DNA of 64,000 nt from NCBI RefSeq assembly GCF_000230715.2, contig NC_019792.1, forward strand, positions 2,914,001 to 2,978,000, in the 5' to 3' direction. Positions 9,186-51,527 of the stretch are shown here, piece by piece. Numbering within the stretch: position 1 is the stretch's first letter; each line of letters opens with the position of its first letter. The DNA comes from Natronobacterium gregoryi SP2 (lineage in GTDB: Archaea > Halobacteriota > Halobacteria > Halobacteriales > Natrialbaceae). The notes beneath the pieces are model-generated. The model made no database searches. It saw nothing but the letters and a program-made list of their open reading frames with translations, and had not been told where the DNA came from. The position numbers and the translations under genes are program-made.

Positions 9186-11093
9186 TTAAACGCCGATCGC
9201 TCCGATCGTAGCAGCGTTTTGCTCGTCGTCAAGTTCGTCCTCAAGGTCGTCGAGACCGACGTCGACGCCCTCGACGTAGAGGAAGATCTCCGCCTGCTCG
9301 ATCAGTACCTGCAAGCGATCGTCGTCGACCTCGTCGTTCTCGTCAGGTAGTTCGTCGTCCTCGTCGTCCATCATATCATCGTCCATTGCGTCGTCGTCCA
9401 TCATATCATCGTCCATTGCGTCGTCGTCCATCATATCATCGTCCATTGCGTCGTCGTCCATCATATCATCGTCCATTGCGTCGTCGTCCATCATATCGTC
9501 ATCAATGGCGTCCATCCCCTCGACGTAGACGAAGATCGTACTCTGCTCGATAGTGACGTCCTCGAGTTCGTCGGTTACGTCGAGGTCGTCGTCCATCGCG
9601 TCGTCGTTCACTGTATCGTCGTCAGCGACAGGATCTTGATCGATATCGTCAGCATCGATGACGACGAAGATAGTCGCTCGATCGGCGGAGAGACTGATCC
9701 GGTCGGGACCGTCCTGCATGTCGTTTTCGTCGTCAACCTCGGTATCGTCGATCTCGTCCATCATCTCGATGCCATCCAGAACGGCGAAGACAGTCGCGTC
9801 ACCGATCGTAATCTCAGTTACCTCGTCTGGTTCTTCGTCGTCGATCTCGTCTGGTTCTTCGTCGTCGATCTCGTCTGGTTCTTCGTCGTCGATCTCGTCT
9901 GGTTCTTCGTCGTCGATCTCGTCTGGTTCTTCGTCGTCGATCTCGTCTGGTTCTTCGTCGTCGATCTCGTCTGGTTCTTCGTCGTCGATCTCGTCTGGTT
10001 CTTCGTCGTCGATCTCGTCTCCGATCTGCGTAACAGTCGCTTGTTCGATCGAGACGTCGAGCTGGTCGTTGGTTACCTCGAGTTCGTCTTCGTCGAGGTT
10101 GTTCTCGACTGCATCGTTTAGTTCGTTGTTTGCGTCGTCGTTCTCGTCGATTTCGTCGTTTACACCATCGTTCTCGTCGATTTCGTCGTCAAGTTCGTCC
10201 TCGAGGTCATTCTCGTCAATCGGCATCTCACCATCTTCGACGTGCGTGAAGATGTCCGCGTGATCGATGCTGATGTCGATTGCTACCTCGTCGGGCAACT
10301 CGTCGATCGGCTCTTCGATTGGCTCGTCATCGACGGGTTCGTCGTCAACAGGTTCGTCGTCGACGGGTTCGTCGTCAACAGGTTCGTCGTCGACGGGTTC
10401 GTCGTCAACAGGTTCGTCGTCAACGGGTTCGTCGTCAACAGGTTCGTCATCGACGGGTTCGTCGTCAACGGGTTCGTCGTCAACAGGTTCCTCTTCGATT
10501 GGTTCGTCGGTGACAGTCACGACAGCATCGTCAGTCACCGGTTCCTCATCGGGAGTCAGATACGGGACATCTTCTTCACCATCAGTCTCGACGAAGTCGA
10601 ACTCCTGGGTGTCGGTCGTGTCGCGATGCGGCATCGCGATCAGCGTTTCGTCTTCCTCGAGTGGTTCGTCGAGAGTCACTTCGACGTTCTCGTGGGTTCC
10701 CGCTTCCAGGTACGCTGACGATCCGATGATGCTACCGATAACTTCCCCGATCAACAGACTACTGTCGTGAATCACCACGAAGCCACCGTTTGCCATCGTG
10801 ACTTCGTCCACGACGACGGTCTCGCCCGTCGTCTCCTGATCTTCGAATGTTACGTACGCGGCTTGTTCTTCGTCGGGTTCGTCGGGTTCGAGTTCGATTT
10901 CCTCGTCATCGTCGACATCATCTTCTCTCTCCTCGTCCTCGATCGGTTCGTCCGTTTCGTTTATCTCACCGTCGTCTGTGTCTTGCTCGTCGACAGTCGC
11001 TGGTGCCGTGGCGGCACCTGCAACCATCGCCCCGCTCGAGCAGACCATCATCAACGCAGTGAGTACTACGAGTAGCTGCTTGCGTGCGCTCAT
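9186..11093 (-). CDS. Secreted acidic tandem-repeat protein with DUF7282 domain
   Basis: A 635-residue protein with a cleavable signal peptide (residues 1-28, VVLTALMMVCSSGAMVAGAA). A DUF7282-like beta domain follows (about 78-165, YVTFEDQETTGETVVVDEV). After it comes an extremely acidic region of three perfect or near-perfect repeat blocks: 11 copies of VDDEP, 8 copies of EEPDEIDD, and about 5 copies of a ten-residue DDDMMDDDAM unit. Between the blocks a short beta-like module recurs six times in the form IEQAxIFxxVEG. No membrane anchor or PGF-type sorting signal is visible. The protein should be extracellular, highly charged and able to bind cations or stay soluble in brine. A membrane-bound DUF7343 regulator gene lies just upstream in the same direction. 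Confidence 0.85.
   Translation of the reverse strand: MSARKQLLVVLTALMMVCSSGAMVAGAATAPATVDEQDTDDGEINETDEPIEDEEREDDVDDDEEIELEPDEPDEEQAAYVTFEDQETTGETVVVDEVTMANGGFVVIHDSSLLIGEVIGSIIGSSAYLEAGTHENVEVTLDEPLEEDETLIAMPHRDTTDTQEFDFVETDGEEDVPYLTPDEEPVTDDAVVTVTDEPIEEEPVDDEPVDDEPVDDEPVDDEPVDDEPVDDEPVDDEPVDDEPVDDEPVDDEPVDDEPIEEPIDELPDEVAIDISIDHADIFTHVEDGEMPIDENDLEDELDDEIDENDGVNDEIDENDDANNELNDAVENNLDEDELEVTNDQLDVSIEQATVTQIGDEIDDEEPDEIDDEEPDEIDDEEPDEIDDEEPDEIDDEEPDEIDDEEPDEIDDEEPDEIDDEEPDEVTEITIGDATVFAVLDGIEMMDEIDDTEVDDENDMQDGPDRISLSADRATIFVVIDADDIDQDPVADDDTVNDDAMDDDLDVTDELEDVTIEQSTIFVYVEGMDAIDDDMMDDDAMDDDMMDDDAMDDDMMDDDAMDDDMMDDDAMDDDMMDDEDDELPDENDEVDDDRLQVLIEQAEIFLYVEGVDVGLDDLEDELDDEQNAATIGAIGV
9361..9510 (-). 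repeat. 30-bp tandem repeat (coding)
   Basis: Four identical 30-base units (9361-9480) and a fifth, diverged one (to 9510), encoding the ten-residue Met/Asp unit of the acidic protein. Identity at the DNA level means recent expansion or gene conversion. Confidence 0.95.
9823..10014 (-). repeat. 24-bp tandem repeat (coding), eight copies
   Basis: Eight copies of a 24-base unit, identical by eye, encoding EEPDEIDD in the acidic protein. In-frame multiples keep the ORF open, and copy number probably varies between strains. Confidence 0.95.
10327..10491 (-). repeat. 15-bp tandem repeat (coding), eleven copies
   Basis: Eleven 15-base units encoding VDDEP. Third positions differ between neighbours in a partly alternating way (a 30-base super-unit), so this block is older or grew by pairs. 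Confidence 0.95.
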
Positions 11094-12058: not shown

Positions 12059-12146
12059 CTGGTACCGTTTCAGCCGCCGACTGACGAGTCGAACCGGTCG
12101 ACACGATCGGGGTCGATCCAGCAGTGCAGGCGTGGCCCACTACTAG
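12059..12146 (-). repeat. 88-bp CTAG-bounded palindromic element, diverged copy (A3)
   Basis: Read on the minus strand it begins CTAGTAGTGGGCCACGCC and ends with a decayed CTGG/CCAG border. It aligns along its whole length with the two near-identical copies, though many bases differ. Its CTAG at 12143-12146 is shared with the next element. Confidence 0.75.
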
Positions 12147-12230
12147 TGGCGGGCCAAGCCTGAACTGATGGGTCGAATCTGGCGGTGTGGCTCGATTCGA
12201 CCCGTCAGTCGACGGTTGGGACGGTACTAG
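12143..12230 (+). repeat. 88-bp CTAG-bounded palindromic element (A1)
   Basis: Exactly 88 bases from CTAG to CTAG. The two 36-base arms are inverted repeats matching at 27 of 36 positions, with a perfect inner stem GGGTCGAATC/GATTCGACCC around a 14-base loop. It differs from the copy at 21027 by only two bases. It shares each terminal CTAG with a neighbouring element. Confidence 0.9.
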
Positions 12231-12314
12231 TACTCCGCCAAGCGTCGACTGCTGCGTGAACCCAGACGACCGCATTCGGTTTCACTCATCCGTTCAGGCT
12301 TGCCAAAGCACTAG
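12227..12314 (-). repeat. 88-bp CTAG-bounded palindromic element, type B (B1)
   Basis: Exactly 88 bases. The outer arms resemble the A type, but the central stem is different: GTGAAACC paired with GGGTTCAC. In the minus orientation it matches the element at 51440 with only a few differences. It shares the CTAG at 12227-12230 with element A1. Confidence 0.9.
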
Positions 12315-17181: not shown

Positions 17182-17588
17182 CGGCCCGTAGTCGTCGCCA
17201 ACTGTACGTAAAACTCCCGGTACGGCGCAACTGAACGGGAAATCAATCGTAAGCGCATGCCGCGAACGCGGCGGCAGTTTCCGCTCTCGGAGCGAGTAAG
17301 ACACCTGTACTCGTCGCGGCCGCCTCGAGGACAGCGGTCACAGACGAAAGGTAGTCGCTGGAACGTAACGTTTGATCTCTTCTACGTCCTGCAAGACGTG
17401 GAATCCGGCCATCAGATTTCCGCCGAGCGTGGCGTTCGAGGTTCCAACCCACACTCATACGGACTGCTGTCCCGATGTACCGGCCCGACCGCGAGCCCTT
17501 TGCAGTCGCGCCGGAACACTCGTCACTCACGGGAAGGCAAACGCATGCGGTTGTATCTTTATCACCGAGGACTCGAAACCTGTGCGTG
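17182..17588. other. Divergent intergenic region of about 400 bases
   Basis: Lies between the divergent pyrD and PAP2 genes. It holds both promoters and one copy of the GATACGG hairpin family (17456-17556). No gene is supported. Confidence 0.5.
17456..17556 (-). repeat. GATACGG palindromic element, diverged copy
   Basis: Matches the reverse complement of the family: CATACGGACTGCTGTCCC at the left, an inner stem around CGGCCCGACCGC and GCAGTCGCGCCGG, then a longer right end (GCATGCGGTTGTATC) with inserted bases. Unlike other copies it lies upstream of two genes, not after a stop codon. Confidence 0.7.
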
Positions 17589-18596
17589 ATGAGCGAGGAG
17601 CAAGTGTTCCCGACCAGGCTATTCGACCCGGAACTAAACCGGGCGATCCACGAGGCACTCCCCGGCGTCGTCGTCGACGCCTTCGGGGCCCTGACTGTCC
17701 TCGGAGACGGTGCAATACTCGTTGCCATCGCTACCCTCTTGTACTGGTTCGGTAGCGAAACAGACCGCCACGATCGGGCAATGGTGCTCGCAGTTGCCGT
17801 GACGACGCTCGCCCTCGTCACCGGCCTGAAAGGAATCCTCGAGATCCCACGACCGCTGTACGTGGCCGAGCCGCCACTCGAGTTCGCACCGGCGGCGTAT
17901 CCGGGTTGGAGCACTCCAAGTGCCCACGCAATGGGTGCTGCAGCAGTCTACGGAGCACTGGCCGTCGTCACGAATACGGGGACACGCCACCAACGGTATG
18001 CAGCTGCCGCCTTTCTCGTCGTCACGATTCCGCTCTCGCGGGTCGTGATCGGCGTCCACTACCTCGGTGACGTCATCATCGGTGCAACACTGGGACTGCT
18101 GCTCGTCGCAGTCGCAGTACGGATCACGACCCGGTCGGTCACGCCAATGTTTGCCCTCTCGTTGGCTATCGCCGTTGCCGCGTTCGCTCTGGGTTCCGAG
18201 GAGTTCACGACGATGGCTATCGGAGCGTCGCTTGGCGGGCTCGTTACCTGGCCGCTCCTCGAGAATCGAACGGCCAATCCACTTGCTGCGTCTCTCCTCT
18301 TTCTCGGTCTGCTCGTACTCCCGTTGTTAGGCGTCGTGAAACTCCTCGAGGTATCCCTCGCCGTCGAAGGTGGCCTCGTAATCGCGGGGACGATGGTGAG
18401 TCTTGCATCGATTCTCGAAACGATCGGATTCGCGCTGGCGTTCGGCGGTGCGCTCGCCGTGCCGTACCTCGCTACCCGACTCAACGATACGGACGCTGTT
18501 CGAAAACTACAGACTGTCCTGCCATTTCGCGGCCGCCACGTCGAACTGGCTGCGGTCGGCGACGAGCCGAGTGTGGACGACCGAACCAGATTCTGA
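17589..18596 (+). CDS. PAP2 superfamily membrane phosphatase
   Basis: Integral membrane acid phosphatase of 335 residues acting on a lipid or isoprenoid phosphate. The three PAP2 motifs are present: KGILEIPRP, PSAHAMG and SRVVIGVHYLGD, the last giving the catalytic His and Asp. About nine membrane helices are visible, more than the six of minimal PAP2 proteins; the extra ones follow the catalytic domain. The start is the ATG at 17589, since the upstream 38 codons of the frame cross a hairpin element. Its TGA stop is the first three bases of a GATACGG hairpin element. Confidence 0.87.
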   Translation: MSEEQVFPTRLFDPELNRAIHEALPGVVVDAFGALTVLGDGAILVAIATLLYWFGSETDRHDRAMVLAVAVTTLALVTGLKGILEIPRPLYVAEPPLEFAPAAYPGWSTPSAHAMGAAAVYGALAVVTNTGTRHQRYAAAAFLVVTIPLSRVVIGVHYLGDVIIGATLGLLLVAVAVRITTRSVTPMFALSLAIAVAAFALGSEEFTTMAIGASLGGLVTWPLLENRTANPLAASLLFLGLLVLPLLGVVKLLEVSLAVEGGLVIAGTMVSLASILETIGFALAFGGALAVPYLATRLNDTDAVRKLQTVLPFRGRHVELAAVGDEPSVDDRTRF

Positions 18597-18679
18597 TACG
18601 GTTTGCTGTCAGTCAGTTCCGGTGCGACCGTGAACTCTCCTGCGGTCGGGCCGGTACATCGGGACAGCAGTCCGTCTGA
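18594..18679 (+). repeat. GATACGG palindromic element abutting the PAP2 stop
   Basis: Begins TGATACGGTTTGCTGTC, whose TGA is the PAP2 stop codon, and ends GGGACAGCAGTCCGTCTG. The outer arms pair over 13 bases with two mismatches and the inner arms (CCGGTGCGACCG/CGGTCGGGCCGG) over 12 with two mismatches, so the whole folds into one hairpin. Confidence 0.85.
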
Positions 18680-20941: not shown

Positions 20942-21342
20942 CCATCGTCACACCATTCGACTGAGACATGTCCACAACCTGATCGGAAACCACACTTTCC
21001 GAGCACTCAAGACCGCTGCGACTAGTCTAGTGGCGGGCCAAGCCTGAACTGATGGGTCGAATCTGGCGGTGTGGCTCGATTCGACCCGTCAGGCGACGGT
21101 TGGGGCGGTACTAGAGAGTCTCTATTTCGTGTCTGCACGAGTAAATAGGGGCGATTCCTCCGGCAACTGATCGCGTCCATACTCGAGAGAAATCGCGACC
21201 GGCTGTCGGAACGATATCGCCTCGAAATCGACGAGACGACGCTGTGTCAGCTATTAGGGCGTTGGACCTGCCTCGAGTGGAATCGACTACCCTGGAAAAG
21301 CCGACCGTCAAAGTGGAACCGACCGTCCGGAGGAATCGGCCG
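20611..21342. other. Gene-poor stretch of about 730 bases
   Basis: Contains the doubtful minus-strand frame above, an 88-bp element at 21027-21114 and a doubtful 66-codon minus-strand frame (21111-21311) whose TAG stop lies in that element's terminal CTAG. Nothing else is supported. Confidence 0.5.
21027..21114 (+). repeat. 88-bp CTAG-bounded palindromic element (A2)
   Basis: Identical to the copy at 12143-12230 except for two bases, including the central stem GGGTCGAATC/GATTCGACCC and both CTAG ends. An extra CTAG lies just to the left (21022-21025). Confidence 0.92.
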
Positions 21343-50684: not shown

Positions 50685-51443
50685 ATGGAGCGGGTCTCAC
50701 ACCACGGCCGGGAGACGGCCTACGAAACCGTCGACGGGGGTGACGGTTCGACGATCTGTCTCGTCCACGGAACCGGTGGCAACCGCGATCTCTGGCAGAA
50801 ACAGCACGCACTCGCAACCGACCGACCGCTGGTCACACTCGATCTCAGCGGCCACGGCGACTCCGACGACATCGACGCCAGTCCCGGCTACGCGACGTTC
50901 TCCGCGTACGTCGACGACGTCCTCGCCGTCGCCGAAGCGACCGACTCTCGGGTGCTGGTCGGGGGTTCGATGGGCGGTGCAGTCGTCCTTCACCTCCTCC
51001 TCGAGCGGTCGTTTCGCCCCGACGCAGTCGTCTTGACGGGGACCGGCGCACGGCTGGGCGTCCTCGAGGACCTGCTCGCGTGGCTCGAGAACAACTTCGA
51101 CCGCGCGGTCGAGTTTCTCCACGCCCAGGACCGGTTCTTCCACGATACCGACCGCGACGTCGTGGCGCTGTCGAAAGAAGCGATGTACGACGCCGGCCAG
51201 GAGGTAACCAGCCGGGACTTCCACAGCTGTCACGGGTTCGACGTTCGGGAACGTCTGTCCGAGATCGACGTTCCCGTCCTGGTCGTCTACGGCGAGTACG
51301 ATCGGCTGACGCCGCCGTGGTTCCACGAATATCTGGCCGACGAGATTCCAGATACCGACCTCGTCGAGATCGAGGACGCCGCTCAGCGAGCGATGCTCGA
51401 GCGACCGGAGCCGTTCAACGAGGCCGTGCGGTCGTTCCTCTAG
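50685..51443 (+). CDS. Alpha/beta hydrolase fold protein lacking the usual catalytic His
   Basis: A 252-residue cytoplasmic alpha/beta hydrolase. Oxyanion region VHGTGGNRDLW, nucleophile elbow GGSMGG, acid residue in VVYGEYDRLTPP. Where relatives have a GHxxxxE-type catalytic His near the end, this protein reads EDAAQRAMLERPE, with Gln (codon CAG) in the His position. The rest is well conserved, so loss of activity or a changed mechanism is likely. The start is the ATG giving the MERVSHHGRETAYE N-terminus; the longer frame crosses the hairpin spacer. Its TAG stop lies in the left CTAG of an 88-bp element. Confidence 0.85.
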   Translation: MERVSHHGRETAYETVDGGDGSTICLVHGTGGNRDLWQKQHALATDRPLVTLDLSGHGDSDDIDASPGYATFSAYVDDVLAVAEATDSRVLVGGSMGGAVVLHLLLERSFRPDAVVLTGTGARLGVLEDLLAWLENNFDRAVEFLHAQDRFFHDTDRDVVALSKEAMYDAGQEVTSRDFHSCHGFDVRERLSEIDVPVLVVYGEYDRLTPPWFHEYLADEIPDTDLVEIEDAAQRAMLERPEPFNEAVRSFL

Positions 51444-51527
51444 TGCTTTGGCAAGCCTGAACAGATGAGTGAAACCGAATGCAGTCGTCTGGGTTCACGC
51501 ATCAGTTGACGCTTGGCGGAGTACTAG
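51440..51527 (+). repeat. 88-bp CTAG-bounded palindromic element (B2) filling a convergent gap
   Basis: Exactly 88 bases from CTAG to CTAG and nearly identical, in opposite orientation, to the element at 12227. The left CTAG contains the TAG stop of the hydrolase gene, and the right CTAG contains (on the minus strand) the TAG stop of panB. The element therefore occupies the whole intergenic space. Confidence 0.92.

Follow-up and report, generated by a model that had tools for sequence, protein, structure and literature searches.

The array at positions 12059 to 12314 of the window, which here means the whole 64,000-nucleotide stretch of Natronobacterium gregoryi SP2 DNA that was analysed, raises the question of what its three elements are and how neighbouring elements came to have one CTAG in common. 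The 88-mers are very probably MITEs of a CTAG-inserting haloarchaeal clade of IS630, with the arrays formed by serial insertion. This reading names a likely engine for an abundant haloarchaeal repeat and explains the origin of the CTAG-sharing arrays.

The array and its family in the genome

The window array consists of three units of exactly 88 bp with neighbours overlapping by a single CTAG, and in this respect the initial annotation is borne out by the coordinates (CTAG at 12143 and 12227). Unit 1 (12059-12146, + strand) is near core type D and diverged (78% to D). Unit 2 (12143-12230, - strand) has core type A (GGGTCGAATC) and is 100% identical to the type A query, and the genome holds at least seven identical copies of its sequence. 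Unit 3 (12227-12314, + strand) has core type B (GTGAAACC) and is 98.9% identical to the type B query; the pair formed by units 2 and 3 recurs with 100% identity at genome position 1373546. The CTAG common to units 1 and 2 (12143-12146) corresponds to a target C/TA/G, and the one common to units 2 and 3 (12227-12230) is a left-left junction within a near-perfect palindrome. The outer right CTAG (12311-12314) is a single target copy, which is CTGG or CCGG in relatives with an empty site. Self-complementary positions number 60 of 88 in unit 2 and 56 of 88 in unit 3, but 42 of 88 in unit 1, which is thus poorly palindromic; its outer left end is CTGG, not CTAG, as it also is in the relative G003, where the site is empty. 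A decayed fourth unit had been suspected upstream, but the unit consensus, searched at word size 7, had no match there, and the DNA upstream of the array aligns, weakly, with the empty-site relatives. Next to the array, at 9186-11093 (- strand), is an open reading frame of 635 aa that contains extended acidic repeats in tandem (blocks of DDEPV, DDEEPDEI, and DDDAMDD).

Two solitary 88-bp MITEs also lie on the - strand of the window, one of type A at 21027-21114 (97.7% to A) and one of type B at 51440-51527 (94.3% to B). There are 37 CTAGs in the 64 kb, and four pairs at a spacing of 84 were seen against approximately 0.02 expected from this density; this spacing is not due to chance. In the genome as a whole (3,788,356 bp, a single contig), a scan for CTAG-N80-CTAG gave 158 sites and, among the matches listed, nearly all are family members. 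The units are thus short, non-coding, multi-copy, and dispersed, as MITEs are, and the 80 bp between the CTAGs are too short for a transposase.

Among the loci collected from the genome, 194 full units were counted. They fall into 95 clusters, of which 29 consist of one unit, 41 are pairs, 18 are triples, 6 are quadruples, and 1 is a quintuple. By core type, 81 units are A, 61 are B, 11 are D, and 2 are C, with a further 39 belonging to type E, which is 110 bp long, has CTAG at offsets 0, 26, 80, and 106, and has the outer 22-nt arm in common with the 88-mers. Units of both lengths are mixed in the same arrays with one CTAG per neighbour pair; the exact length of 88 bp is therefore correct for the window units, but is not the sole length of the family. 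The alternation of orientation in the window (+, -, +), initially presented as a property of the array, is incidental: the 52 junctions between 88-bp units are left-right, right-right, and left-left in the ratio 28:15:9, which is compatible with the 2:1:1 expected at random.

In the part of the genome that was listed in full, 79 of 101 CTAG-ended units share a CTAG. The expectation is 17% if all of the approximately 1970 free CTAGs are equal targets, but 64 to 81% by chance if only about 150 to 300 sites are tolerated. The clustering is thus too strong for random use of every CTAG, but random insertion into a few hundred tolerated sites would be enough to produce it. A strong preference of the elements for their own ends was considered and is therefore unproven. 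An open frame of 100 codons or more ends at the outer CTAG in 58 of 165 cases; among free CTAGs this holds for 44 of 262 (p=2e-5, odds ratio 2.7). Because insertion at C-TAG keeps the stop codon, such sites probably tolerate insertions. Units often start exactly at the TAG closing an upstream open frame and leave the stop intact, for example at genome position 988929, which is worth considering in genome annotation.

Empty sites and target duplication

Comparison of filled and empty sites, proposed with the initial annotation, finds the array locus empty in four congeners, where the flanks join at one 4-mer (CTGG in G003 and CCGG in the other three). Two further loci hold exact 190-bp insertions in this genome (110 + 88 bp minus two CTAGs) and are empty in relatives: the flanks join at CTAT, CTAC, or TTAC at locus 1002912, and at CTAA or GTAG (TTGA in G004) at locus 988929.

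Although only CTAG precedes the left arms in the N. gregoryi genome, where no CTNAG was matched in this position, 15 left arms in 8 genomes of the family are preceded by CTNAG instead (0 in a reversed-pattern control). The same N is found at both ends in 12 of these 15 insertions, which indicates that the central base derives from the target and that the repeated base reflects target duplication, not end-to-end joining. Both mechanisms had been offered for the locus; the empty sites and the CTNAG insertions support insertion into CTAG with duplication, and site-specific end-to-end joining is not needed. Where TA is intact, counts across units show the base outside varying in approximately 12 cases and the base inside in 1, and the best reading of the duplication is therefore T(N)A rather than CT(N)AG. 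Duplicated targets and empty sites are further properties in common with MITEs.

IS630-type elements with the same ends

In Natrinema sp. SYSU A 869, a search of plasmids with the type E end identified an element of 1.5 kb whose ends have the form CTAG-N22-CTAG and whose IS630-type transposase is encoded in two frames. Versions of approximately 1.2 kb occur in G020, G083, G071, Natrinema hispanicum, Natrarchaeobius chitinivorans, and others, so the full-length transposon with the same ends that had been recommended as a search target does exist. One end of the Natrinema copy L220 (TACCGTCCCAACCGTCGAGTGA) is identical at 21 of 22 positions to the type A left arm (unit TACCGTCCCAACCGTCGACTGA), and terminal inverted repeats are thus common to the 88-mers and an autonomous IS, as in MITEs; the right arm (GCCTGAACTG) differs from the known IS ends (GTCGA). 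The possibility that type E is an internal deletion of the IS was rejected, as there is no similarity beyond the ends.

The partner transposase matches HTH_32 and DDE_3 (PF13358, 1.7e-27). Both frames match NCBIfam transpos_IS630 (NF033545) in adjoining parts of the model, and the C-terminal half alone scores 148 bits, above the cut-off of 100; these Pfam and NCBIfam scans rest on copy L303, the second frame of L301 being broken. The two frames overlap and join at a conserved CTAAAAAAAC run (L301-L303, L293, L298, and L299), which suggests a programmed frameshift site.

The genome G083 has the order 88-mer, IS, 88-mer with single CTAGs as the joints, and IS ends also abut 88-mers via one CTAG in G002 and G006. 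The second frame of the IS between the 88-mers is broken, whereas that of a 99.3% identical sister is open. These near-identical copies (L301 and L302, at C1:167711-168919 and C1:1600500-1603600) differ in target, one being in CTAG and the other in CTGAG repeated at both ends. Thus one IS element appears to duplicate either TA or TNA (2 or 3 bp), which is unusual. Tc1/mariner elements are strict in their use of TA, and the duplication of TA in one copy and TGA in the other is a departure from this. With TA duplicated at CTAG and TNA at CTNAG insertions, instead of TA only, the partner belongs to IS630 by its DDE_3 transposase and is a variant in target duplication. Other haloarchaeal IS630 copies (L222, L225, and L226, with TGTAGCTTCAA-like ends) also sit in CTCAG or CTGAG.

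The partner transposase is present in 18 of 293 genomes of the host's order and reaches other families. No cognate transposase was found in the N. gregoryi genome itself: its two intact IS630 groups have ends unrelated to those of the 88-mers and were rejected as partners, as were its IS4/IS5 (DDE_Tnp_1) groups, the ends of which do not match. Phage records searched for the family gave no match. Mobilisation in this lineage would have required a transposase that has since disappeared or was encoded on a plasmid no longer present. The copies in this genome, which are mostly 94-100% identical to their type and occupy loci that are empty in congeners, look orphaned after a recent burst.

The proposed mechanism has the MITEs mobilised in trans by the partner transposase, presumably with cut-and-paste chemistry. 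The transposase would recognise CT(N)AG ends plus approximately 22 nt (TACCGTCCCAA-CGTCGACTG-like), and the element would be inserted into C/TA/G, or less often C/TNA/G, with duplication of T(N)A. Each insertion would create a new CTAG on either side of the element, and these CTAGs could serve as targets for later copies, which would produce end-to-end arrays with one CTAG per neighbour pair and neighbours in random relative orientation.

Covarying cores and known systems

The 88-mer is found in 38 of 125 genomes of the host's family, representing 16 of 29 genera (E<=0.001), with one weak match outside the family among 16 order-level genomes. Loss of the length or of the CTAG ends in relatives would have spoken against the initial annotation, but both are kept in the haloarchaeal relatives searched, and units from several genera align gap-free over 88 columns. 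In this alignment 92.6% of cells pair symmetrically, and there are 72 double-changed cells, compared with 23.3 in shuffles (0/500) and at most 13 in slid controls. Few of the pairs are G-U, so the constraint looks like inverted repetition at the DNA level and not RNA. Mismatches are kept at pairs such as 6/83, 18/71, and 20/69, which indicates that the left and right arms stay distinct. Within the N. gregoryi genome, most changes in types A and B affect one arm with no matching change in the other, and no compensatory changes were seen among its copies. It may be that source elements are kept palindromic, either because a hairpin is needed for movement or through arm-to-arm template switching, with dead copies drifting.

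A simple model of end recognition has no need of a core that covaries as a palindrome, and this counts against the preferred reading, as do the lack of a cognate transposase in this genome and the differing right arm. A more specific proposal, possible but doubtful, is that an IS630-type transposase with an optional central base in its CT..AG half sites duplicates 2 or 3 bp and that the cores are obligate perfect inverted repeats. If true, hairpin or cruciform extrusion or arm-to-arm correction would be part of the transposition cycle, unlike in the standard Tc1/mariner model.

The 72 double-changed cells against 23 in shuffles and the presence in 38 of 125 family genomes could also mean that the MITEs were later kept by the host as a functional hairpin (a terminator, RNA processing site, or nucleoid site), which would explain conservation of the 88-bp length and covariation of the core across genera. 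This is unlikely, however, as the loci are not common to congeners, the one-sided changes in types A and B indicate that individual copies decay, and the scarcity of G-U pairs argues against RNA.

Palindromes in high copy, with inverted neighbours in arrays and a core that covaries at the DNA level, would also suit REP/BIME- or IS200/IS605-like elements moved single-stranded by a Y1 HUH transposase (RAYT/TnpA), with CTAG as the guide tetranucleotide. The REP/BIME and REPIN palindromes of bacteria are dispersed, have inverted neighbours, and are moved by Y1 RAYTs (PMC3116915, PMC2817692), and REP palindromes are 20-40 bp with GTAG/CGTC tags (PMC3733652). They resemble the 88-mers in being dispersed palindromes with inverted neighbours, but the partner there is Y1 and here it is DDE. 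To our knowledge, no target duplication is known for them. A Y1 origin is highly improbable given that the genome holds only three Y1_Tnp fragments, all broken, that the complete elements sharing these ends encode a DDE_3 transposase, and that the target base is duplicated, unlike in IS200/IS605 insertion. Least probable of all is an integron-like array in which a recombinase would have linked site-specific modules end to end at CTAG. This would fit the common CTAGs and the imperfect hairpins with fixed mismatches but not the random junction orientation, the solitary copies with clean empty sites, or the CTNAG base repeated at both ends.

IS630-type MITEs thus remain the preferred reading. By the titles of refs b29 and b30 as cited in PMC2170065, IS630 of Shigella is reported to insert at TA in CTAG, with a preference for CTAG. 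The partner resembles the IS630 family (of the Tc1/mariner superfamily, with IS630 of Shigella and ISY100 of Synechocystis) in its HTH, DDE_3, and TA target, but differs in its double-CTAG ends (CTAG-N22-CTAG), its additional CTNAG target with a 3-bp T(N)A duplication, and a transposase split over two frames at the CTAAAAAAAC run. The NuwaII transposons of eukaryotes (PHIS superfamily) target C/TNA/G with a 3-bp duplication only (PMC4482050); the target is like that of the partner, but the transposase superfamily is different and there is no 2-bp option.

Prokaryotic and archaeal MITEs are short, non-coding, high-copy elements with IS-type inverted ends and target duplication (PMC10969869; Haloquadratum walsbyi, PMC3119063), and some have no working transposase in their genome (PMC10969869, PMC3119063). 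The 88- and 110-mers have the same build, but are palindromic over nearly the full length, have a fixed length of 88 or 110 bp, and form CTAG-sharing arrays. The initial annotation knew of no family built in this way; literature searches found no published description of this one, although the build itself is that of an IS630-type MITE. The 88-mers are apparently an undescribed repeat that is common within a single family of halophilic archaea. Their unusual parts are the 2- or 3-bp duplication and the covarying core.

The SMR-A and SMR-B elements of H. walsbyi are 80-110 bp with prominent inverted ends and occur in as many as 54 copies; palindromes are the insertion sites of SMR-A, and both elements are reported to have neither target duplication nor a related transposon (PMC3119063). 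Compared by description only, they are like the 88-mers in size, inverted ends, and copy number and differ in lacking target duplication and a related transposon. No SMR-like elements were seen on plasmid PL47, the sole H. walsbyi sequence examined. The 88-mers may offer a lead for these small mobile repeats, the mobilisation of which has been called enigmatic (PMC3119063).

An unrelated dispersed repeat of approximately 87 bp (TCAKACGGACTGCTGTCCCGATGTACCGGC...) lies at 18592-18679 of the window, with a half copy at 17453-17517. It has dozens of copies in this genome, also occurs in congeners, and in one case (genome 991854-992127) abuts a CTAG array.
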